23,826 nt of DNA from positions 1 through 23,826 of the IMG/VR virus record IMGVR_UViG_3300042731_009256; one strand, 5' to 3'. A program made the position numbers and the translations under genes. Below are positions 2,216-10,792 of the stretch, piece by piece. The stretch's first letter is position 1; each line of letters starts with the position of its first letter. Source of the DNA: a virus. The notes under the pieces were generated by a model. That model did no database searches, was not told the DNA's origin, and saw nothing but the letters and a program-made list of their open reading frames with translations.

Positions 2216-2821
2216 CTAATCGTAGCGTTCGACGGCTTTGCGCAGGGCTGTGTATATGGGCTCGCTTTCGTCCTCGTCATCCCCCATGCCGTGGATGTCC
2301 CACAGGGCCAGGGTCTTGCGGGCGGCGTCGAGCAGTGGGGCAGTAGCGACGTGGGCATCGGCGATGGCGAGTTGTTCGCGGGCGAATTCGAGGATCTGTT
2401 CATCGTCCTCCGTGCGATAGTCTGGCGTGGCGTCTGCGAATGCCTTCGTGATCAGGCGCAGGGCGTGGAGCATGTCGGGGTCCGGCATCGGCAGCGTGTT
2501 GATGTCCTTTGCGATGGCCTGGATGTCTCTCCAGCGTTCCACTTCTTCAGGTGTCCATTGCTCGAAGTCGAGCTCCGGGTCCATGTGATCGATCAGCCAG
2601 TCCATTGCCTCGACCACGTGCATGGGCGGGTGCTGCGATGCCAGGGCGAGCAACCTGCGGCTCGCGGCCAGGGCCAACTGCAGTTTCTCCAGTTTGGCTC
2701 GGAGATCTGCCTGCGCTTCCTCGCTTTCGGACTCATCCTTGCCGAAGCTGGCGAGTACGAACCACGTGGCGGCGCTCTCGAGTTCCTGCAGGCTCGCGAT
2801 CAACCTTTGTAAGCGGATCAT
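2216..2821 (-). CDS. Hypothetical protein, helical, last gene of the leftward array
   Basis: A 201-residue, mostly helical and acidic protein. Residues 1-60 look like a coiled coil (QRLIASLQELESAATW, then an E/A/L-rich stretch). A stretch near residues 85-100 (EQWTPEEVERWRDI) suggests a short helical hairpin. The ATG at 2821 was chosen because GGAGG lies 6 bases upstream (AGGAGGACCCCG). A longer in-frame reading to 2935 lacks a ribosome site and has an unlikely N-terminus. The site is only a partial match to the block used by the rest of the array. I cannot assign a family; an early-phage accessory role is inferred from position only. Confidence 0.75.
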   Translation of the reverse strand: MIRLQRLIASLQELESAATWFVLASFGKDESESEEAQADLRAKLEKLQLALAASRRLLALASQHPPMHVVEAMDWLIDHMDPELDFEQWTPEEVERWRDIQAIAKDINTLPMPDPDMLHALRLITKAFADATPDYRTEDDEQILEFAREQLAIADAHVATAPLLDAARKTLALWDIHGMGDDEDESEPIYTALRKAVERYD

Positions 2822-2924
2822 CGGGGTCCTCCTGTCTATCGATCTGGTTTGGGTGTGGCGCTCCGGGGCCGGGTCCAGGCCAGGGCGATTTTCCAGGTTT
2901 TCAGGCTGGCCGGCTGATGACAGT

Positions 2925-3029
2925 CTAGTCGTCATCCCGTATGAATCGGGCTGGCCGTTTGGGCGCTGCCTCGCGTTGCCGGCGAGGCTTCCCCTGCGGT
3001 TCAGGCAGGATCTGGCCTACTTTGTCCAT
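2925..3029 (-). CDS. Possible 34-residue basic peptide
   Basis: A short frame in a 244-base gap of the array. It encodes a Pro/Arg/Lys-rich peptide (GKPRRQREAAPKRPARF inside) that ends in three Asp. The ATG is preceded by CCAGGAGGGG, close to the array's shared ribosome-binding core, but the spacing to ATG is only two bases, shorter than usual. The evidence is position, orientation and ribosome site; coding statistics are not usable at this length. It could equally be spacer sequence. Confidence 0.35.
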   Translation of the reverse strand: MDKVGQILPEPQGKPRRQREAAPKRPARFIRDDD

Positions 3030-3065
3030 CCCCTCCTGGCCTGGGTCCGGCTCCGGAGCATTATC

Positions 3066-3455
3066 CTAAGCGCAGACTGCGGCGAGTTGGTAGCGGGTAA
3101 ACTGCGTCTGTTGTAGGGCGTCGATCCAGGTGAGCAAGACGGTCCAGAACTCGTCCAGGCGTTCGATCCCTTCGATGTCGACGACGTGATCGCCGATGTC
3201 CTGCTCGGTTCCCCCTGCCGGCGCTCCGGAGGGGGTCTTGTCCATACTGCGGGCGTAGACGGCGACCATGTTGTCCTCTACCCACAGCACTTCGGCGCTG
3301 AAGGTTCGGGCGTATACCTGGCCCATCCCGGTCTGGCCGGTGGTGACCGTCTTGCTCAGGCGCTGGCCAATCTTCGCTCGGAAGTATGGTCCCAGGAATG
3401 AGGGAGTTGGCAAGCGAGCGATCACTTCCTCGACTGTGGTGGGTTCGTTGGCCAT
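3066..3455 (-). CDS. Hypothetical protein in the leftward array
   Basis: A 129-residue soluble protein. The N-terminal third is basic and polar (EEVIARLPTPSFLGPYFRAK). The middle is strand-rich (EVLWVEDNMVAVYARS), and the C-terminus is helical (ERLDEFWTVLLTWIDALQQT). The start is supported by GGAGGTATGATCAC before ATG. The gene begins 4 bases from the stop of the upstream array gene, and its ribosome site lies inside the end of that gene, so the two are probably co-translated. I do not recognise the family. Confidence 0.75.
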   Translation of the reverse strand: MANEPTTVEEVIARLPTPSFLGPYFRAKIGQRLSKTVTTGQTGMGQVYARTFSAEVLWVEDNMVAVYARSMDKTPSGAPAGGTEQDIGDHVVDIEGIERLDEFWTVLLTWIDALQQTQFTRYQLAAVCA

Positions 3456-3459
3456 GTGA

Positions 3460-4038
3460 TCATACCTCCGGGGCCGGCTGCACTACTACATGCACAGTGG
3501 GGCGATCATCGTCGGGCGGATCCGCATATCCGAGGAGCGTCTCGGCGATGTCATCGTAGCGGGCCAGGATATCCCCTGCTCCGACACGATCCGTCCATCG
3601 TTTGCTGCCATCGGGATGGCGGAGTTCGAAGGTTCCCTCGTGCGGGTCATAGTCGGTGATCTGCACGCGCGTCCGATCGATGATGCGCTGGTATCTGGTC
3701 CATCCTCGCAAGAATGCTGCCCACAGCATGCTTGGCCATGGGTCCTCCGGCAGAGAGGGCCATGTATCCTCCGTGCCAGGTCCGGGATCGAGGCCGGCGA
3801 CGTCGGGGCGGGGTGTGCAGTTGCGCATCCACTCGGTTGTCAACCCGTGGGTGTGCTGCAGCCAATTCCAGATCGTGTCTGCGTCCTCGCCATGGTAGCG
3901 GATGGCTTTCAACTGCGGGTGGTCCAGATACAATTCGAGTTCCTGCGTCTGACCGTCCTCCTGCGGATGCCGGCGGGCGGCGACGATGTGGCTGACCGAG
4001 ATCAGCCAGTTTCCATCTTGAATCATGGGATTGTTCAT
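3460..4038 (-). CDS. Hypothetical protein in the leftward array
   Basis: A 192-residue protein. Residues about 9-60 read as a small mixed alpha/beta domain (WLISVSHIVAARRHPQ, a strand with LELYLDH, then a helix with DADTIWNWLQ). This pattern is seen in small phage domains that place one helix against a sheet. The rest is Trp- and Pro-rich and acidic. The start follows CCAGGAGGTTACAG, a variant of the array's ribosome block. It lies directly downstream of a promoter-like repeat at 4064-4102, so it may head a transcript with the genes to its left. Function unknown. Confidence 0.78.
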   Translation of the reverse strand: MNNPMIQDGNWLISVSHIVAARRHPQEDGQTQELELYLDHPQLKAIRYHGEDADTIWNWLQHTHGLTTEWMRNCTPRPDVAGLDPGPGTEDTWPSLPEDPWPSMLWAAFLRGWTRYQRIIDRTRVQITDYDPHEGTFELRHPDGSKRWTDRVGAGDILARYDDIAETLLGYADPPDDDRPTVHVVVQPAPEV

Positions 4039-4063
4039 CTGTAACCTCCTGGTTGTGAATGGT

Positions 4064-4102
4064 CCTACTATATAAACGGTTCGGGGCCTGGTTTTCTTCA
4101 GG
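4064..4102 (-). promoter_or_regulatory. Leftward promoter-like repeat, copy 1
   Basis: On the minus strand TATAGT (4067-4072) follows a 17-base spacer from AAAACC (4090-4095). The -10 hexamer is one base from consensus; the -35 hexamer is far from it. The 15 bases CTACTATATAAACGG (4065-4079) recur exactly at 6402-6416. The -35 side, read on the minus strand as CTGAAG then AAACC, is also shared. Conservation of both halves and their spacing argues for a real promoter class, possibly activator-dependent. Confidence 0.55.
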
Positions 4103-4103
4103 C

Positions 4104-4197
4104 TCCCTACTGCCAGGCCGGAAGTGTATCAGTTCTGATATACTTACGGGCTGGCGGTAGGGGGAGACGTCTTTGCGAGGGCGTCTCTCCCTGGCCG
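4104..4197 (-). repeat. Spacer hairpin module between array genes
   Basis: CTCCCTACTGCCAGGCC pairs imperfectly with GGGCTGGCGGTAGGGGG. A second hairpin, GGGAGACG with CGTCTCTCCC, follows toward the upstream gene. This is a degenerate version of the two-hairpin spacers found elsewhere in the array. No U-run follows on the minus-strand RNA. Confidence 0.5.
4122..4145. promoter_or_regulatory. 24-bp dyad, possible operator
   Basis: AAGTGTATCAG and CTGATATACTT flank a central TT and match as inverted repeats in 10 of 11 positions. The dyad lies about 27 bp upstream of the -35 side of the leftward promoter-like repeat at 4064-4102. It is AT-richer than its surroundings. It also sits in the loop of a larger imperfect stem between 4104 and 4164, so an RNA role is the alternative. 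Confidence 0.45.
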
Positions 4198-4199
4198 GC

Positions 4200-4478
4200 T
4201 TATTGCATCCATGGCGCATCGATGTCATCGGGTACGGGGGGCCTGGCCGGCAGCAATCCTTCGGCGACGTAGAGCTCGAACTCCAGTTCGTCTGGTTCCG
4301 TGGCTGTGAGCTCGGTATCTGCGACGAGTTGGGTCCGTTCCCCTGTGGGTTCTCCATTGGGGAATAGGAACTCGACTTCGACCAGGGCCGGCTTGTCCGG
4401 ATCGCCATCGATCAGAGCGAGCTCCCTCGACTCGTGGATCGCGACGATCTGCACTCGGCGTTCGTGATAGTAGATCAT
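4200..4478 (-). CDS. Hypothetical small acidic protein in the leftward array
   Basis: A 92-residue acidic protein, mostly beta by appearance. It shows alternating strands (RRVQIVAIHES, LALIDG, ALVEVEFLFPNG), then a Glu/Thr-rich stretch and a Pro-rich C-terminus. The early half could be a small SH3-like barrel, but no diagnostic motif is present. The ATG follows CCCAGGAGGTATGACCCG, the array's shared ribosome block. It is flanked by hairpin spacers on both sides, so it is an insulated unit within the array. Function unknown. Confidence 0.75.
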   Translation of the reverse strand: MIYYHERRVQIVAIHESRELALIDGDPDKPALVEVEFLFPNGEPTGERTQLVADTELTATEPDELEFELYVAEGLLPARPPVPDDIDAPWMQ

Positions 4479-4512
4479 CGGGTCATACCTCCTGGGGGTG
4501 ATGGGCAGGTTT

Positions 4513-4581
4513 CCCTGCTGCAGGGCCAGGCCGGGGTCCTGGCGCTGCAGCAGGGGGAGACGGGGTCCAGGCGTCTCCCCC
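4513..4581 (-). repeat. Spacer hairpin module between array genes
   Basis: There are two adjacent perfect stems. CCCTGCTGCAG (4513-4523) pairs with 4545-4555 and encloses an inner CCAGG/CCTGG pair. GGGGGAGACG (4553-4562) pairs with 4572-4581. The inner CCAGG...CCTGG is the part shared with the other spacers, while the outer arms are specific to this one. The stems overlap by three bases. Confidence 0.75.
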
Positions 4582-4589
4582 TGCGTGGC

Positions 4590-4919
4590 CTACTCGTTGG
4601 GGTCGTATTCTCCCCCACAGGTTGCACAGTGTACGGTCTGCGCAGGCGTCCATGTCAGGCAGTCCATGCGGCGTTCACCACAGGTCGGGCAGGCTGTCGA
4701 GCGGAGCACGAGGCTCTCGTCCATCGCGGCTTGTACCTTGACGGCCAGGCCGGCGATGGTTTCTGCCTGCAGGACGCAGTACCGAACCGGGTTCGCTGTG
4801 TACCGGATTTCTTCGCGCAGGGCTGTGTACCGCTGGCGTAGGAATTCCAGGTTGGCGAGTAGGATGTTGAGCTCTGCCTCTGAGAGCTCCAGGTGAATGG
4901 GGATTGCGTTCATCGTCAT
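4590..4919 (-). CDS. Small zinc-ribbon protein
   Basis: A 109-residue protein with an N-terminal helical region (residues 13-70, coiled-coil-like, L/E/A-rich) and a C-terminal four-cysteine zinc ribbon: C77-x2-C80 and C98-x2-C101 (CPTC ... HCATC), with an extra C87. Such ribbons bind nucleic acid or protein partners; the exact role is not readable. The start MTMNAIP at 4919 follows CCCAGGAGGTATGACACG. A longer frame to 5012 would run through the neighbouring gene and was rejected. Only 43 bases separate it from the upstream gene, a gap with the ribosome block but without the large hairpin. Confidence 0.82.
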   Translation of the reverse strand: MTMNAIPIHLELSEAELNILLANLEFLRQRYTALREEIRYTANPVRYCVLQAETIAGLAVKVQAAMDESLVLRSTACPTCGERRMDCLTWTPAQTVHCATCGGEYDPNE

Positions 4920-4962
4920 CGTGTCATACCTCCTGGGCATGTGATATGTGTAGGGCTTGCCC

Positions 4963-5154
4963 CTACTGTTGGGCGAGATGCTTGTGTTCAATCTCTCTCT
5001 CGCCGATGCCAACGACTTGAATTCTCCATGTGGTCTTGTGCTTTATGTTCGCGAGTACGATGCCGGCGTGGCCTTTGTATTCTCCGCCGACGATCTGGAC
5101 AGTGTCTCCCTCGCGAATTCCATGGACTTCAATCACTTTGCCTAATCCTTTCAT
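4963..5154 (-). CDS. Small KOW/SH3-like barrel protein
   Basis: A 63-residue protein whose core, REGDTVQIVGGEYKGHAGIV, matches the KOW pattern: a hydrophobic strand, then G-x-Y/F-K-G then G-x-V. This pattern is found in NusG, ribosomal L24 and related RNA- or ribosome-binding proteins. The family usually binds RNA or RNA polymerase partners, so a role in phage transcription or translation is possible but inferred. The ATG follows CCCAGGAGGAAGAAC. A 17-bp hairpin spacer precedes it. The length is that of a single barrel, with no NusG N-terminal domain. Confidence 0.75.
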   Translation of the reverse strand: MKGLGKVIEVHGIREGDTVQIVGGEYKGHAGIVLANIKHKTTWRIQVVGIGEREIEHKHLAQQ

Positions 5155-5177
5155 GTTCTTCCTCCTGGGTTGGGATT

Positions 5178-5271
5178 GTAGGGTTGCCCCTACCGCATCC
5201 CCAGGCCGGCGATCTGGCGATCGCTTGGGTGAGCTCCTGGGGATGCGGTAGGCGGGGAGCGCGGGCTCCCC
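5178..5271 (-). repeat. Spacer hairpin module with perfect 17-bp stem
   Basis: CCTACCGCATCCCCAGG (5189-5205) pairs perfectly with 5236-5252. GGGGAGC (5254-5260) pairs with 5265-5271 across a GCG-containing loop. A third hairpin, GTAGGG with CCCTAC at the SAS-proximal edge (5178-5194), shares bases with the large stem, so the two cannot form together. The loop of the large stem contains GCGATCGC. Confidence 0.85.
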
Positions 5272-5280
5272 TGCCTACAG

Positions 5281-5550
5281 TTAGGCGATCGGCTCGCCAT
5301 CGATTTCGACTGCCTGCATGACCGAGCAGGCTCGCTGGAGGATCGTCCCATCTGGCGCTGCCAGCAGGAAGGCGGGCTCCGTGCTGCCATCGGCGGGGAA
5401 CCGGTGCATGTACGTGGCCAGGACTCTGTATCCTGCTTCGCGGTCCAGGTCCGATGTCAGGAAGATCCCGCTTCCGCTATAGGGGGCCGGCTTAACTCGG
5501 ACGATCATCGTGGTGAAGTGGGTCGTGATTTTGTCGACTTGTCTCGTCAT
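5281..5550 (-). CDS. Hypothetical protein in the leftward array
   Basis: An 89-residue soluble protein, strand-rich at the start (TTHFTTMIVRVKPAPYSG) and with a short segment AAPDGTILQRACSVMQAVEID near the C-terminus that looks like a beta hairpin. The start MTRQVDK at 5550 is fixed by CCCAGGAGGTATGACACG upstream. The longer frame to 6084 overlaps two genes and was rejected. Its start overlaps the stop of the upstream gene by ATGA, so these genes are coupled even though a full ribosome block is also present inside that gene's end. Function unknown. Confidence 0.75.
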   Translation of the reverse strand: MTRQVDKITTHFTTMIVRVKPAPYSGSGIFLTSDLDREAGYRVLATYMHRFPADGSTEPAFLLAAPDGTILQRACSVMQAVEIDGEPIA

Positions 5551-5981
5551 CGTGTCATACCTCCTGGGTGGTATTTCTCGACGTGGTATCCACATCCCCC
5601 TGGGTAACCCTGCCCGTAGGTGTCTACCCAGGAGCAGAGGGCGCGATCGAATCCTCCGCTTCCTGGAGGAGGTCCGTGCCATGCTCCTGCGATTTCCTGG
5701 GCTCCGGGTCGGGGCGAGTAGGCGGGTGGATACGTGCGGATCACTACATGCTCGGCATCTGGTGGGATGGCCGGGTCGGGTTCGAGCAGTCCTGCCTGCG
5801 TCAGGATCTGCTCCAGCGAATCGGCGAGGATGAAGCGCAGGTCTGTCATTTCCTCGTCGATGGTGGCCAGGTCGGCGGGGCTGGCGGTATCGACCTGCTC
5901 GCCGAGCTCGTGCAGGCGTTCGTAATACCTGCGCAGGCCGACGAGGAGACCGTCCTTTAGGGTGAGGGTGTGGGTGATCAT
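5547..5981 (-). CDS. Hypothetical protein in the leftward array
   Basis: A 144-residue protein. The N-terminal 70 residues are helical (VGLRRYYERLHELGEQVD, then an acidic helix with TIDEEMTDLRFILADSLEQI). The C-terminal half is Pro/Gly-rich with few strands, and its last 12 codons contain the ribosome block of the next gene. Its own start uses GGAGGATCTG, not the shared block, and overlaps the preceding stop by ATGA. It is therefore the middle of a three-gene coupled set (5281-6367) that lacks hairpin spacers. Function unknown. Confidence 0.72.
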   Translation of the reverse strand: MITHTLTLKDGLLVGLRRYYERLHELGEQVDTASPADLATIDEEMTDLRFILADSLEQILTQAGLLEPDPAIPPDAEHVVIRTYPPAYSPRPGAQEIAGAWHGPPPGSGGFDRALCSWVDTYGQGYPGGCGYHVEKYHPGGMTR

Positions 5982-6367
5982 CAGATCCTCCGTCTCTCCC
6001 GTGCGAAGCTGAATGCTGCTCCGGACTCTGGCAGCGGGTCCGCCTGCGGCTCGATTGGCTTCCCGTTGGTATCGGGCTGCTCATCGTCGGGCAGCCAGGC
6101 CAGGTTGCCCCACTCCACTTGATCGGTCATGATGCTGACGCGATTATGGGTGGGCAGCCAGGTCTGGACGAAGGCGTGGTCCTGGGGGCCGGGTCCGCCG
6201 AACTTGGCCAGGATCGTGGCGTCGGTGATGTGGGCTCCTTCGGTGTCATCCTCAGCGTCTACGATCGCCATGGCTTGAAGCTGGACTTTGGCATCCTTCA
6301 TCCAACTTGGCTTCTCTCCGGTGTACCGGTAGAAGCGACCGAACTCGACTCGTGTTTGCTCATCCAT
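5981..6367 (-). CDS. Hypothetical protein heading a coupled three-gene set
   Basis: A 128-residue protein. It starts acidic and aromatic (RVEFGRFYRYTGEKPSWM), continues with a strand-rich region (KVQLQAMAIVDAED, HAFVQTWLP, NRVSIMTD), and ends with a Pro-rich then basic tail. The start at 6367 has two purine-rich sites in tandem (AGGAGGTATGGAGGTAAGAC before ATG); the array block is the distal one. Upstream lie a promoter-like repeat (6401-6439) and a 28-bp palindrome (6447-6474), so this gene may begin a separate transcript. Function unknown. Confidence 0.75.
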   Translation of the reverse strand: MDEQTRVEFGRFYRYTGEKPSWMKDAKVQLQAMAIVDAEDDTEGAHITDATILAKFGGPGPQDHAFVQTWLPTHNRVSIMTDQVEWGNLAWLPDDEQPDTNGKPIEPQADPLPESGAAFSFARERRRI

Positions 6368-6400
6368 GTCTTACCTCCATACCTCCTGGGTGTTTGGTGG

Positions 6401-6439
6401 TCTACTATATAAACGGGCGGAGGGCCGGTTTCCTTCAGT
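6401..6439 (-). promoter_or_regulatory. Leftward promoter-like repeat, copy 2
   Basis: On the minus strand TATAGT (6404-6409) follows 17 bases after GAAACC (6427-6432), the same architecture as the copy at 4064-4102. The 15 bases CTACTATATAAACGG are identical in both, and CTGAAG sits just upstream of the -35 side in both. A 28-bp palindrome starts 15 bp further upstream. The downstream gene starts about 37 bases from the -10 hexamer. Confidence 0.55.
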
Positions 6440-6446
6440 CGGCGCT

Positions 6447-6474
6447 CTATCCGTTTGGCTAGTAAACCGGATAG
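6447..6474. repeat. 28-bp imperfect palindrome, copy 1
   Basis: CTATCCGTTTGGCT then AGTAAACCGGATAG; the half-sites match in 11 of 14 positions. It agrees with copy 2 in 21 of 28 positions and with the complement of copy 3 in 22 of 28. It lies just upstream of a leftward promoter-like repeat, as expected of an operator or activator site. Confidence 0.65.
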
Positions 6475-6487
6475 CAGTTGGGGAGCT

Positions 6488-6560
6488 CCCAACCCCAGGG
6501 CCAGGCGGGTCGTCCTGGTCCTGGGGTTGGGGGGCAGGAGGGTGGGCATCCTCCTGCCCC
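6488..6560 (-). repeat. Spacer hairpin module between array genes
   Basis: CCCAACCCCAGG (6488-6499) pairs perfectly with 6520-6531 and encloses a second CCAGG/CCTGG pair. GGGGCAGGAGG (6531-6541) pairs with 6550-6560. The arms differ from all other spacers, yet both hairpins and the CCCAGG edge are kept. Confidence 0.78.
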
Positions 6561-6578
6561 TTGCCCCTGGGTGTTGGC

Positions 6579-7214
6579 CTACTCGTAGGCACCGAGGCGC
6601 GTCAGGGCCGGCGTGGGGTCGATGGGCACTTCGTGCGTATTGTGCCAGCTATCGACTCTGACCGGCATGCCGGCATCGATGAAGCGTTGGAGATCCTCAT
6701 ATCTGCTGAGTTTGGCGAACTCGGCGCAGAGGAGCGGCTTGGCGGCTTCGGCGTCTAGGGCGAGGCAGTCGACCGTGATGTTCTGGCTCCCTGGGTTCCA
6801 TTCTTCGAAGCTGTCCATGAAGCGGGCCAGGGAGGGGTCTGGTACGTCCTCGAGGGGCACGTGCTGGTGCAGGCGAGGGTCATAGAGTGACTCGACGAAG
6901 GTGCGGCTGCGGGCTAACTTCTCCAGCATCTGCCTGGGGGATATCGGTGCATAGGGCGCAGCGTCCGTCTTGAGGGCTCGCTTGGCCCACTTCGTTGCGA
7001 TGGTGAGGTCCTCCAGGTGTCTGGCCGTTACCTCGACCTGCATGCCGTACCAGTCCAGCGGGCGTTTGTGTCTCTCGCTATGCCAGATAATCTCGATCCG
7101 CGAGTTGTTGGCGAAGCGATCCTGTGGGTACAGGGTGAGGCGGAAGGTGGCATAGTCAGAGTTGCGCGGGAACTCGATGTGCGCTTCATAGTAGCATACG
7201 GCTTTCTCGGTCAT
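6579..7214 (-). CDS. Hypothetical protein, largest of the array
   Basis: A 211-residue protein. The N-terminal half is a beta-rich domain (VCYYEAHIEFPRNSDYATFR, then RIEIIWHSE, then MQVEVTARHLEDL). The C-terminal half is helical (SPRQMLEKLARSRTFVESLY; RYEDLQRFIDAGMPVRV). The YYEAHIEF and ATFRLTLYP strands resemble a small ferredoxin-like or double-psi fold, but no catalytic motif is visible. The ATG follows CCCAGGAGGTAAGACG, identical to the site of the first array gene. The GC-rich spacer to its left has full hairpins. Function unknown. Confidence 0.8.
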   Translation of the reverse strand: MTEKAVCYYEAHIEFPRNSDYATFRLTLYPQDRFANNSRIEIIWHSERHKRPLDWYGMQVEVTARHLEDLTIATKWAKRALKTDAAPYAPISPRQMLEKLARSRTFVESLYDPRLHQHVPLEDVPDPSLARFMDSFEEWNPGSQNITVDCLALDAEAAKPLLCAEFAKLSRYEDLQRFIDAGMPVRVDSWHNTHEVPIDPTPALTRLGAYE

Positions 7215-7239
7215 CGTCTTACCTCCTGGGTGAGGATCT

Positions 7240-7314
7240 GTAGGGCGTTGCCCTACCGTAACCCCAGGCCGGGGGTCCTGGAGTTATGGTAGGGAGGGAG
7301 CTCAGGCTCCCTCC
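7240..7314 (-). repeat. Spacer hairpin module, near-identical to the next
   Basis: GTAGGGC (7240-7246) pairs with GCCCTAC (7250-7256). CCCTACCGTAACCCCAGG (7251-7268) pairs with 7277-7294 with two mismatches or wobble pairs. GGAGGGAGC (7293-7301) pairs with 7306-7314. The first two stems share bases 7251-7256 and are mutually exclusive. The third stem overlaps the last codons and stop of the upstream gene. Confidence 0.85.
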
Positions 7315-7559
7315 GTCCCAGGGAGCGGTAGAGGCCGGCTGTGTTGGCCGAGGCTCCTACCATCTGGCCGGTATATCGTCGGGCCCATGCCCAGGCGTCT
7401 GTACAATCTCACGGCCAGTTCGGCGCAGGCGATCATGCTGCCGTGGTACTCGATGCGGCTGCTGCTGACGGGATCCCGGCTTACCAGTTTATACATCGTG
7501 GCGACGTCGTTGGCTTTGAGGCTGTTCTCGATGATGGCTGCGAGGTCGATGGTGTCCAT
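7302..7559 (-). CDS. Hypothetical small protein in the leftward array
   Basis: An 85-residue protein with a helical first half (DTIDLAAIIENSLKANDVAT, then CAELAVRLYRRLGMGP) and a Pro/Arg-rich C-terminus. The last residues (PGTEGA) are encoded by one arm of a terminator-like hairpin, so the end of the reading frame may have been set by module insertion or recombination. The start follows CCCAGGAGGTATCAG. Near-identical spacers lie on both sides, which makes the gene a unit flanked by direct repeats that could be lost or swapped by recombination. Function unknown. Confidence 0.72.
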   Translation of the reverse strand: MDTIDLAAIIENSLKANDVATMYKLVSRDPVSSSRIEYHGSMIACAELAVRLYRRLGMGPTIYRPDGRSLGQHSRPLPLPGTEGA

Positions 7560-7582
7560 CTGATACCTCCTGGGTGGGTTAT

Positions 7583-7657
7583 GTAGGGCGTTGCCCTACC
7601 GTAACCCCAGGCCGGGGGTCCTGGGGTTATGGTAGGGAGGGAGCGCGGGCTCCCTCC
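7583..7657 (-). repeat. Spacer hairpin module, near-identical to the previous
   Basis: GTAGGGC (7583-7589) pairs with 7593-7599. CCCTACCGTAACCCCAGG (7594-7611) pairs with 7620-7637, one wobble. GGAGGGAGC (7636-7644) pairs with 7649-7657. It matches 7240-7314 at all but a few positions, and the arms are also shared with 9010-9052. Confidence 0.87.
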
Positions 7658-7664
7658 GTCCCAT

Positions 7665-8150
7665 CTATCGTCCTTCCCATTTGACCAGGCATGCCCACTG
7701 TTTCCAGCTAAGCGGGCTCGGGTATTGGCGTTCCTCCGGGTCCGTCTCCAGCCAGGTGATGATCTGGTCGCAGAGGCTGGCTCGGAAGTCCGAGCGGAAT
7801 TGCTTGGTCTTGAGTAGGCGGGCGGCTGCTCGGCGCTGGTTGGGGTGTACGTCCGGGCTGGCCATCCATCGCAGCCAGTGTTCTGGCCAGTCCGGGTCGG
7901 CGATCGCGAAGGTGTCTTGCCAGGCGAGGGGGTCTTTCAGCCATTCTTCCGGCGTCAGCCAGGCGGGCAGGTCGATCGCTCGGACTTCCCACTTGGTGAA
8001 GGTTACGGGTCGCCAGTCGTCGGAGCTCAGGATCCCTTGTTTTGTCTCCGTGATGTCTACCTGCTCCGTATAGACTGCGACCGGGCGGCGAGGCGTTCCC
8101 ATTTCCTCGCCATCGTGGCGGTAGAGGATCGCGTGTGTTACGGTATCCAT
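7665..8150 (-). CDS. Hypothetical Trp-rich protein in the leftward array
   Basis: A 161-residue, Trp-rich soluble protein. The N-terminal third is beta (THAILYRHDGEEMG, VAVYTEQVDITETK). The remainder is helical with repeated W-L/W-x pairs (PAWLTPEEWLKDP, PEHWLRWMASPDVHPNQRRA) and a basic helix (AARLLKTKQFRSDFRASL). The ATG follows CCCAGGAGGTATGACCG. A second, out-of-frame ATG inside this ribosome block opens a 149-codon overlapping frame, which I treat as a shadow because its composition follows the real frame's third positions. Function unknown. Confidence 0.78.
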   Translation of the reverse strand: MDTVTHAILYRHDGEEMGTPRRPVAVYTEQVDITETKQGILSSDDWRPVTFTKWEVRAIDLPAWLTPEEWLKDPLAWQDTFAIADPDWPEHWLRWMASPDVHPNQRRAAARLLKTKQFRSDFRASLCDQIITWLETDPEERQYPSPLSWKQWACLVKWEGR

Positions 8151-8186
8151 CGGTCATACCTCCTGGGTGTGTGGGTGTAGGGGCTC

Positions 8187-8211
8187 GGTGGGGGAGGATA
8201 TCTCCCCCACC
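8187..8211 (-). terminator. Terminator-like hairpin, reduced spacer
   Basis: GGTGGGGGAG (8187-8196) pairs perfectly with 8202-8211 around a GATAT loop. This spacer has only this hairpin and the ribosome block; the large CCCAGG-edged stem is missing. No U-run follows on the leftward RNA, so termination would need Rho or would be partial. Confidence 0.6.
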
Positions 8212-8221
8212 TTGCCTTTAC

Positions 8222-8419
8222 TCATACCTCATCCCCCTCCTTGCCCGTCTCCCTTTCGGCTGGCCTGGGTCGGGCCGGCTTTAGGGCGGCGAGCAGATTG
8301 TCCACTCTCGCGCGGGCGATGCCGAGGCGCGTGGCGATGTCGAGGAGTGTTTCGTTTGCGTCTCGCCATTGCTGCTCGAAGGTGGCGGCATCGGTTGGCT
8401 TTTGGTCGTTCTCAGCCAT
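8222..8419 (-). CDS. Small protein with possible helix-turn-helix
   Basis: A 65-residue protein. Residues about 21-45 (NETLLDIATRLGIARARV then DNLLAALK) fit a helix-turn-helix: a helix, a G-I turn, then a second helix ending LLAAL. The remainder is a basic, Pro-rich tail followed by acidic residues. If correct it could be a DNA-binding regulator, possibly of the palindromes described here; that is inference. The start at 8419 was chosen because AGGAGGTATGAGG places ATG at normal spacing. The ATG two codons upstream sits only one base from the site. Alternative: a short coiled coil. Confidence 0.68.
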   Translation of the reverse strand: MAENDQKPTDAATFEQQWRDANETLLDIATRLGIARARVDNLLAALKPARPRPAERETGKEGDEV

Positions 8420-8445
8420 CCTCATACCTCCTGGGTGTGGTATGT

Positions 8446-8551
8446 GTAGGGGCTTGCCCCTACCGGATCCGCAGGCCGGGGGCGTGGATCCCGTTGGGGT
8501 ATCTTTGCTCCCGTTCTGCGGATGCGGTAGGGGGGGAGCGCGGGCTCCCCC
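8446..8551 (-). repeat. Spacer hairpin module between array genes
   Basis: GTAGGGG (8446-8452) pairs with CCCCTAC (8457-8463). CCTACCGGATCCGCAGG (8459-8475) pairs with 8515-8531 with one internal mismatch and a long loop. GGGGGAGC (8532-8539) pairs with 8544-8551. This copy has CCGCAGG in place of the usual CCCCAGG, matched by CTGCGG on the other arm. Confidence 0.8.
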
Positions 8552-8565
8552 TCCTACGCTGCGGA

Positions 8566-8862
8566 TCAGGCTCCTTCCTCCCATCGTTCCTGTACGCTGG
8601 TTACTTCTATACGTTCGACTTCGTGTGCGGCGTGGGTTACGTGCGAGGTATGGCCTTCTCCCCTGGCCGGTTTCCAGGTCCAGGGCGTGACCATGGTCAC
8701 TTGTTCGCCTGCGACCGTCGTTACCTCCAGGATCTGGCCGGTTGCCTTGATCCGGGCCAGTTCGCCGACTTTCGGCGTTCCGGGTCTTACTTCCATGGTG
8801 TGCGTGGTGACGATCCCGTTTTCGCGCTTCGATTCGGCGAGGGCCACCATCTTGATTGCCAT
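8566..8862 (-). CDS. Hypothetical small beta-rich protein
   Basis: A 98-residue protein dominated by strands: GIVTTHTMEVRPG, then VGELARIKATGQILEVTTVA, then EQVTMVTPWTW, and a final VERIEVTSVQ. The pattern VGELARIKATGQILEV resembles the first strands of a KOW/SH3 barrel without the Gly-Lys-Gly signature, so it may belong with the KOW-like gene at 4963-5154. The ATG at 8862 has ideal spacing (8 bases) from CCCAGGAGGT; the in-frame GTG at 8871 overlaps the site and was rejected. A His-rich loop (HTSHVTHAAH) could bind metal. Function unknown. Confidence 0.75.
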   Translation of the reverse strand: MAIKMVALAESKRENGIVTTHTMEVRPGTPKVGELARIKATGQILEVTTVAGEQVTMVTPWTWKPARGEGHTSHVTHAAHEVERIEVTSVQERWEEGA

Positions 8863-9009
8863 GCTGCTCACCTCCTGGGTGTGGGATTATAGGGCCCTAT
8901 CGCCGAGGGCTCTGCTACCGGCTCCGCGGGCTGCGGTGTTGGGGGGTTTGCGTCCGGTGGCCTAGACGGGGGTTGATCTGCCCGTCATCCCCTTCGGCTC
9001 GTGGTAGGG

Positions 9010-9069
9010 CCCTACCGTAACCCCAGGAGCGGGTCCTGGGGTTACGGTAGGGGGGAGCGTGGGCTCCCC
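9010..9069 (-). repeat. Spacer hairpin module with perfect 18-bp stem
   Basis: CCCTACCGTAACCCCAGG (9010-9027) pairs perfectly with 9035-9052. GGGGAGC (9052-9058) pairs with 9063-9069. Compared with the 5189-5252 stem, two positions differ and both partner bases have changed to keep pairing. The 213-base gap to the left also holds about 130 bases (8870-9005) with no gene and no clear structure beyond a short GGGCCC. Confidence 0.87.
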
Positions 9070-9075
9070 TCTACT

Positions 9076-9465
9076 CTAGATCAGTCTGGCCCATTGGGCC
9101 ATACCTCCGCGGGCCCAGTCCTGCGGGCGGGCTGTCGCGGCTATCTTGTCGGCGATGTCGTCGAGGCGATCGGCGAGGGCGCGTTGTTCGGTTCCCCAGG
9201 TTCCGGGCAGGTCGAAGGTGGCGGTTACGGGCAGGCATTTGTGTTCGCGTTTGGGGCTGATCGCGAAGGCGACCATCCTCCAGATATATGCGGTTTCTCC
9301 GCCTGCCGTTACTTGCCGGGTCGTGGGGTCGAAGGTGACTCGCGGCTTCGAGGCTCGCAGGCATCCTTTGTTCTTGCCTTGTGTGGCGATGATGCCTTGC
9401 GCGAGTGCGAGTTCGGCGGGTGTCAGGCTTGCCTTGCTCAGGTCGAGCTCGGGCATGTTGTACAT
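9076..9465 (-). CDS. Hypothetical protein, first gene of the leftward array
   Basis: A 129-residue protein. It has an N-terminal helix (SLTPAELALAQGIIATQ), a central beta region with two likely exposed Cys (GKNKGCLRASKPRVTFDP, then ETAYIWRMVAFAISPKREHK), and a C-terminal helix (ALADRLDDIADKIAATA). The WRMVAF core looks like a buried strand of a small alpha/beta fold. The ATG follows CCCAGGAGGTAAGACG. It is the first gene after the control region, and its ribosome site can be masked by an 8-base complement at 9510-9517. Function unknown; as the first gene it is a candidate early product. Confidence 0.8.
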   Translation of the reverse strand: MYNMPELDLSKASLTPAELALAQGIIATQGKNKGCLRASKPRVTFDPTTRQVTAGGETAYIWRMVAFAISPKREHKCLPVTATFDLPGTWGTEQRALADRLDDIADKIAATARPQDWARGGMAQWARLI

Positions 9466-9470
9466 CGTCT

Positions 9471-9572
9471 TACCTCCTGGGTGTGTTATGTAGGGCGTAA
9501 CCCTACCAGCAGGAGGTTAGGTCGGGTCTTGCTGCTCTACTGCCGGCAGTAGTGTCCTGCCTAATCTCCTGG
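9471..9572 (-). promoter_or_regulatory. Leader of first array gene with anti-ribosome-site element
   Basis: In the leftward RNA the ribosome block (plus-strand ACCTCCTG at 9472-9479) is exactly complementary to plus-strand CAGGAGGT at 9510-9517. That same stretch can instead pair with CCTAATCTCCTG at 9560-9571 (11 of 12). Between them lies the perfect palindrome CTACTGCCGGCAGTAG (9537-9552). A GTAGGG/CCCTAC hairpin is at 9490-9506. The two pairings exclude each other, as in a translational attenuator. Confidence 0.55.
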
Positions 9573-10358: not shown

Positions 10359-10387
10359 TTGACACCGAAACCGTTCTCGTGTATAAT
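10359..10387 (+). promoter_or_regulatory. Perfect-consensus sigma70-type promoter
   Basis: TTGACA (10359-10364), a 17-base spacer and TATAAT (10382-10387), all exact consensus. The start should fall near 10393-10395. It faces the lysis and structural genes but precedes the first rightward gene by about 400 bases. Confidence 0.9.
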
Positions 10388-10393
10388 GGGGAC

Positions 10394-10511
10394 GTCAAGC
10401 GCAACCTCCTGGGTGTGGTCCTCGTCCGTAGGGGTCCGATCGGTTGCGGGAGATGCCAGGAGCATCCTGGGTCGTTGTTCCTGCTCCTGGCCGTTCTTAT
10501 ACCCATTTTTT
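10394..10511 (+). ncRNA. Candidate antisense RNA or leader against the array ribosome sites
   Basis: An RNA from the consensus promoter would begin near 10394. It would carry AACCTCCTGGGTGTGG (10403-10418), the complement of the ribosome block shared by the leftward genes; up to 16 bases match exactly (the gene starting at 8419). Further on, GCCAGGAGC (10455-10463) pairs with 10483-10491 in a 9-bp stem, and T6 follows at 10506-10511 after a 14-base gap, so termination is possible but not canonical. CCAGGAG in the stem can also pair with the CTCCTGG of the anti-ribosome segment. Alternative: this is the relic of an array module that lost its gene, now simply part of a long leader. Confidence 0.45.
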
Positions 10512-10680: not shown

Positions 10681-10792
10681 GTCCGGCTCGGGCTTTAGGG
10701 CCTACGATCTGGATTCTGCCCAGGAACTCGTACACACGGGCGGTCACAGCATTTGCTGTGGCGGACTCGTGTGTTTTGCTTTGGGGGTATCG

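Follow-up and report, generated by a model that had tools for sequence, protein, structure and literature searches.

A repeated ribosome-binding block before the leftward genes of a virus fragment, and its complement in the leader of the opposing late unit

Introduction

What does a sequence block do that stands, nearly unchanged, before most genes of one viral gene array? The stretch analyzed here (the window) is a 23,826-base virus fragment from IMG/VR in which two gene sets oppose each other. The rightward set encodes a Mu-like portal protein, an amidase endolysin, a holin, a head protease, a cement protein, the major capsid protein, and tail genes, and the leftward set comprises 15 small genes running from 9465 down to 2216. 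An earlier note on this DNA described a repeated ribosome-binding block in the leftward set and likened it to the start-associated sequences (SAS) of cluster K mycobacteriophages. On balance, we favor the view that the block is an extended ribosome-binding tag marking an RNA-controlled translation regulon, and that an RNA from the leader of the late unit would shut off the leftward genes.

Results

The block precedes most leftward genes

The exact sequence CCCAGGAGGT, whose full form is (A)CCCAGGAGGT/A, occurs 11 times in the window, always on the minus strand; ten copies precede leftward genes and one, an orphan that the earlier note overlooked, lies at 10404-10413. Allowing up to one mismatch raises the number of matches to 17, where 2.6 would be expected, and none of 100 shuffles yields as many. 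The repetition reported by the earlier note therefore stands, with an exact block at 10/15 leftward genes, a block with at most one change at 13/15, and none before rightward genes. Single changes are found at 5160 (CCCAGGAGGA), 4044 (ACCAGGAGGT), and 3464 (CCCCGGAGGT), and two leftward genes, starting at 5981 and 2821, have no block.

Other details of that description needed adjustment. It counted 16 leftward genes, where we find 15. The distance from block to ATG, given as 3-8 bases, is mostly 5-8, but the gene at 6367 has its block 13 bases away and a second GGAGGT adjoining the start. Upstream CACA, said to extend several copies, is common to the orphan and to the first four gene copies, counted from the upstream end, and the downstream sharing is partial: TATGACACG and TAAGACG each occur twice, but TATGACCCG and TATGACCG only once each. 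The absence of the block from rightward genes was borne out, as the rightward strand of the window holds no CCCAGGAGG. On the array strand, 10 of 13 CCCAGGAGG copies stand before starts with standard spacing; another (6390) is farther from the gene that follows it.

The array and its blocks are listed below; the last entry for each block is the length, in nucleotides (nt), of its perfect complement to the predicted late-leader RNA.

2216-9485, minus: array of 15 small leftward genes, with hairpins between genes and a block before most of them (open reading frames and intergenic sequences read out)
9472-9481, minus: exact block, gene 9076-9465; 14 nt
8870-8879, minus: exact block, gene 8566-8862; 15 nt
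8426-8435, minus: exact block, gene 8222-8419/8425; 16 nt
8158-8167, minus: exact block, gene 7665-8150; 14 nt
7565-7574, minus: exact block, gene 7302-7559; 12 nt
7221-7230, minus: exact block, gene 6579-7214; 12 nt
6381-6390, minus: exact block, gene 5981-6367; 13 nt
5559-5568, minus: exact block, gene 5281-5550; 12 nt
5160-5169, minus: one-change block CCCAGGAGGA, gene 4963-5154; 10 nt
4928-4937, minus: exact block, gene 4590-4919; 10 nt
4487-4496, minus: exact block, gene 4200-4478; 10 nt
4044-4053, minus: one-change block ACCAGGAGGT, gene 3460-4038; 10 nt
3464-3473, minus: one-change block CCCCGGAGGT, gene 3066-3455; 6 nt

Ribosomal pairing does not account for the whole block

The block could simply be a favored strong ribosome-binding site that was spread by duplication and recombination, with the orphan and its promoter context having no regulatory meaning. 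It does contain a 7-nt Shine-Dalgarno sequence, and the intergenic regions of the window are mutually repeated at 84-93% identity. However, predicted pairing with 16S rRNA is no better than at rightward genes, with mean duplex energies of -12.6 kcal/mol for leftward and -12.5 kcal/mol for rightward sites (p=0.46).

For the 16S tail we sampled the class of the likely host. One capsid relative, at 65% identity, sits in an Anaerolineae metagenome-assembled genome, so the host is probably a Chloroflexota bacterium; the class was sampled because the 16S end was not found in that genome itself. The tail reads ...CACCTCCTTT (also given as CCTCCTTT) in all genomes where it was found (21/60). The ACCC before AGGAGG has no pairing partner in the ribosome, and something else must therefore keep those bases. 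Across four related phages, CC precedes AGGAGG-plus-start sites at 40/67 positions on the array strand versus 3/38 on the late strand (Fisher 9e-8). Given that 16S pairing is equal on both strands and that ACCC cannot pair with the tail, the predictions indicate that the block is not simply a stronger Shine-Dalgarno sequence. Nor, judged by its frequency, is it a host habit: ACCCAGGAGG-N4-10-ATG occurs 0-9 times per genome in 60 genomes of the likely host class (1.2-8 Mb). The earlier note would have abandoned its proposal had the motif been equally common before rightward or host genes, and neither these counts nor the 3/38 late sites show it to be common there.

The leader of the late unit carries the complement

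The orphan block lies about 17 bases downstream of the TATAAT of a consensus promoter. Because this promoter points opposite to the orphan, an RNA transcribed from it would carry the complement of the block (the anti-block). The elements of this leader, several of which recur in the related contigs L015, L018, and L031, are as follows.

10359-10387, plus: rightward consensus promoter TTGACA-17-TATAAT; 12/12 consensus bases, in the same place in L015, L018, and L031
10394-10775, plus: predicted RNA of about 382 nt, delimited by the promoter and terminator positions; it has the anti-block hairpin at its 5' end, then more hairpins, a conserved 3' module, and the terminator
10400-10448, plus: predicted 5' stem-loop CGCAACC...GGTTGCG, in which the UCCUG of the anti-block is unpaired (predicted fold)
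10405-10414, plus: anti-block CCTCCTGGGT, the reverse complement of ACCCAGGAGG, with the orphan block on the other strand; longest string common to four leaders
10734-10775, plus: predicted terminator ACACGGGC...GTGTGTTTT, immediately ahead of the endolysin gene; conserved in L015, L018, and L031
10793-11506, plus: endolysin (Amidase_2), first gene of the late unit; start re-read from the sequence

Perfect complementarity to the anti-block region spans 10-16 nt at 12/15 leftward starts and at most 9 nt at 20 rightward starts (p=2e-5). This comparison is to some extent circular, since the block defines the anti-block; what it shows is how far the match extends past the core. The leader and its hairpins had no match in Rfam 15 at gathering score (best chance-level match, E=0.005). 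Searches for tRNA-like elements found none in the window or L015 and one doubtful element in L018, outside the leader. A leader stretch at L018:6458-6550, with an equivalent in L015, is itself tRNA-like (weak tRNA-Sec score, E=0.76) and contains GGTTTGACTCC and a long acceptor-like stem.

Could the orphan be an ordinary member of the set, providing a short peptide gene on the leftward strand with its ribosome-binding site? L018 has an ATG at good spacing (GGAGGGTTAATG, 16 codons) and L031 has one 14 bases away, but the window has none there and the nearest in L015 is 16 bases away. The would-be peptides are short and would cross a perfect promoter on the opposite strand, and it is the spacing to the promoter, not to a start, that is conserved. 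We consider this explanation very improbable.

Alternatively, block and orphan could both be sites of a phage protein, either an RNA-binding repressor resembling T4 RegA or a DNA-binding protein resembling that of the phage L5 stoperators, for which the orphan would be an operator beside the late promoter. The orphan lies about 10-20 bases past the presumed transcription start, where a bound protein could block the promoter, and the block, like SAS (GGG...CCC), could weakly form a hairpin (ACC...GGT). Pope et al. likewise left "RNA or protein" open for SAS in 2011 (PMC3203893). Against this, nearly all sites in the window sit at properly spaced ribosome-binding sites, which a DNA operator would not need; L5-type sites, at which the repressor binds DNA, are untied to ribosome-binding sites, unlike the standard-spaced majority of CCCAGGAGG copies here. 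Moreover, the orphan has the one orientation relative to the promoter that yields the complement, and no candidate regulator was found. A protein thus seems a rather unlikely regulator.

Block and anti-block are kept together in relatives

MegaBLAST against phage records gave no near match to the window among named phages, and capsid matches in those records were all below 60% identity, the best being from Arthrobacter phages. The close capsid relatives (73-78% identical) are other IMG/VR contigs, L015, L016, L017, L018, and L031; L014 is the same phage as the window. The window, L015, L018, and L031 all contain both blocks and anti-block. In these four phages the anti-block starts 17-22 nt after TATAAT (20-22 bases in L015, L018, and L031), and in the three relatives ACACGGGC...GCCCGTGTT and a T-rich run stand directly before the endolysin gene as the terminator. 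The L018 array contains AAA, ParA, FtsK, and DnaA/DnaD-like genes, all of them non-structural; the ParA-, FtsK-, and DnaA/DnaD-like array genes of relatives belong to replication and maintenance.

From promoter to terminator the four leaders measure 209-446 nt and differ almost everywhere, L015 and L018 sharing more with each other. The longest string common to all four is CCTCCTGGGT; in 2000 shuffles of the first 60 bases, no common string exceeded 6 nt. Predicted folds leave the anti-block partly unpaired inside a larger stem-loop in 3/4 leaders. The base that follows GGAGG agrees between block and anti-block in L015 and in the window.

A fourth relative, G004 (L017), with 74% capsid identity, also has a leftward array and, in the same place, a strong promoter, yet neither block nor anti-block; the L016 locus is the same. 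Block and anti-block are therefore jointly present or jointly absent in all five phages examined. The earlier note held that relatives with the genes but not the block would refute its proposal. G004 does have the array without the block, but because the anti-block is missing too, it fits an RNA-controlled regulon better than it fits a refutation.

These comparisons also bear on the spread of a favored ribosome-binding site. The tag remains even where the intergenic sequences of the phages have diverged, no ten-base string other than that of the orphan is kept in the four leaders, and G004 lacks both halves, all of which makes spread by duplication an improbable explanation.

Seven further pattern matches to promoter plus anti-block (L024, L027, L029, L026, L028, L058, and L059) were treated as chance because they are without blocks and lie mostly inside or beside coding sequence. 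About 90 bases past TATAAT, the L015 and L018 leaders share a near-identical hairpin, GCCGGAGGAGGG(G)TGCGGGCCCAGACTCCGGC, in diverged surroundings; it can pair with the anti-block in cis. Searching with this hairpin returned only those two contigs, and searching with the 3' module of the leader returned only L015, L018, and L031.

Cluster K mycobacteriophages offer a parallel

The window phage lies outside cluster K (Weiservirinae). SAS were described in that cluster by Pope et al. (2011), who asked whether RNA or protein binds them and noted that Anaya, Adephagia, Angelica, and CrimD each have one reverse-orientation SAS unlinked to a gene start (PMC3203893). Late transcription of Adephagia appears to begin in the gap that holds this reverse SAS (PMC11373665). 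We located it in Adephagia (record position ~58,682) and Anaya, where it forms the loop of a long hairpin, GCGCGG-CCTCCTATCC-CCGCGC. Validus, Amelie, Efra2, Stinson, Adephagia, and Anaya retain the hairpin with an exact anti-SAS sequence in its loop. The association is evident in part of cluster K but does not extend to all of it. We found no description of an anti-SAS RNA in the open-access literature. Because the arrangement is also found in this unrelated phage group, it points to function, not accident.

A model for shutoff of the leftward genes

The tag, its strand bias, its complement, the promoter, the terminator, their conservation in three relatives, and the joint absence of tag and complement from a fourth can be read from the sequences themselves, and this sequence evidence is strong. 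In the model that we favor, the tag would mark a translation regulon consisting of the leftward, non-structural genes, and the cognate regulator would be an RNA. The late unit, which comprises the lysis and structural genes, has the strong consensus promoter at its left end; this promoter would give rise to an RNA of about 380 nt, either a leader or a small RNA, that ends at the terminator just before the endolysin gene and carries CCTCCTGGGT, the exact complement of the tag, near its 5' end. Pairing in trans with the tags would cover the Shine-Dalgarno sequences, and translation of all leftward genes would be shut off together at the early-to-late switch. Synthesis of the RNA, its pairing in vivo, repression as the effect, and the early-to-late timing are steps that we infer from this arrangement.

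Several observations weigh against this model. The predicted fold of the L015 leader pairs the anti-block in cis. In L018, the base after GGAGG is not tracked (blocks read GGAGGA, the complement of the anti-block GGAGGG), and exchanging anti-blocks between phages revealed little own-versus-foreign preference, a specificity that we rejected as weak. Only four block-bearing phages were found. Within cluster K, the C-rich loop of Amgine, PhelpsODU, Bryler, and Shandong1 has two mismatched bases in its middle, and no such loop was found in the leaders of the SAS-bearing phages Keshu, Pixie, MacnCheese, KiSi, Chris, and Marshawn. SAS is still standard in Amgine and Bryler although the loop has changed; we rejected covariation of SAS and loop in these two phages, and strict co-evolution is disfavored for the same reason.

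Intergenic hairpins and other features of the window

Hairpins recur between the leftward genes.

7250-7311, 7593-7654, 8513-8550, and 9010-9052, minus: repeated intergenic hairpin family upstream of blocks; near-identical nested hairpins

Their sequences include GGGAGCCCGCGCTCCC, CCTACC-ATAACCCCAGG...CCTGGGGTTACGGTAGG, and GTAGGGCAACGCCCTAC, with alternative pairings possible, and stems of the GTAGGG/CCCTAC type, such as GTAGGG-CAAC-GCCCTAC, stand at several sites in the window. The nested hairpins resemble an attenuator or a processing site. The idea that upstream hairpins form a second half of every tag was rejected: they beat shuffles (p<=0.05) at 6/40 block sites in the four phages, the same as late controls (5/38).

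Three blocks (4919-4937, 5550-5568, and 4478-4496, minus) continue into GGAGGTATGACACGATGA or ATGACCCGATGA, creating a four-codon Met-Thr-Arg-stop frame whose TGA overlaps the true ATG; this is possibly a mini-gene or coupling device, or mere block homology. An element, CGTTTATATAGTAG, is common to 4060-4080 and 6395-6415 (minus), 20-30 bases upstream of some blocks, and is present as TATATAGGTAGA in the relatives G005 and G002; it is perhaps an internal promoter. On the plus strand at 1784-1798, in the portal-fusion gene, CCTCCTGGG stands within the conserved motif PPGREY in three of the block phages (window, L015, and L031), while L018 has CCCCCTGGG and the block-less G004 with CCGCCGGGG. 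This could be a second anti-block on the late mRNA, or mere codon choice.

Family searches gave no strong match for the proteins of the leftward array, a KOW motif excepted. This motif (Pfam E=2e-5) lies in a 63-aa protein (4963-5154, minus) whose PHROG match to a transcription antiterminator is weak. The protein is a candidate NusG-like factor; its operon is rich in hairpins and faces a terminator before the lysis genes.

Comparison with known systems

The earlier note's analogy with SAS, proposed despite an unrelated sequence, holds in position, orientation, restriction to non-structural genes, and conservation past the Shine-Dalgarno core. Both are short asymmetric tags containing a Shine-Dalgarno sequence, present just upstream of starts in many copies of one orientation. 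Like SAS, the block is confined to non-structural genes, lies 3-8 bases upstream of starts, contains AGGAG, and has bases conserved beyond 16S pairing (the CC counts above). As in subcluster K1, a single reverse-complement copy without a gene start stands in the late leader. The consensus sequences differ (13-bp GGGATAGGAGCCC for SAS, ACCCAGGAGGT for the block), and the phages and their hosts are unrelated. About half of SAS sites have an upstream 17-bp inverted repeat (ESAS), and these repeats overlap SigA-like promoters (PMC11373665), whereas the upstream inverted repeats of the window look like RNA hairpins. We claim no ESAS equivalent because the upstream hairpins are not significant over all sites.

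The predicted leader RNA also resembles antisense small RNAs in having a promoter and a terminator of its own, a C-rich stretch that lies mostly within a hairpin loop and is complementary to ribosome-binding sites, and several Shine-Dalgarno targets (the 12/15 leftward genes with 10-16 nt of perfect complement). In Staphylococcus, the C-rich loops of RNAIII, a trans-acting antisense RNA, cover Shine-Dalgarno sequences. Unlike the targets of RNAs of that type, those proposed here bear a common, dedicated tag that is repeated along a phage operon, and the putative RNA comes from the late unit opposing that operon, as its leader.

T4 RegA (review: PMC3014915) is a translational repressor protein. 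It acts at many early-gene ribosome-binding sites. As with RegA, a single putative regulator would turn off translation of many phage early genes, but here that regulator would be an RNA rather than a protein. The arrangement is also like that of lambda pR', 6S RNA, and tR', in that a strong promoter is followed by a leader a few hundred nt long and then, immediately ahead of the lysis genes, by a terminator. Unlike in lambda, no antiterminator was identified in the window phage, and a complement of early ribosome-binding sites is not known from 6S RNA.

Tentatively, and with somewhat less than even confidence, we suggest that tagged ribosome-binding sites and a late-leader anti-tag RNA may form a general phage device, in which RNA from the late promoter silences a whole early regulon, and which would have arisen separately in Chloroflexota phages and in cluster K, explaining SAS. 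SAS have been described since 2011, and as of 2024 their role was reported to be unknown; an antisense RNA that is cognate to them and lies in the late leader offers a specific mechanism that can be tested in laboratory phages such as Adephagia. If true, it would add to phage biology a translation switch from early to late genes that is based on RNA and has an effect comparable to that of T4 RegA.

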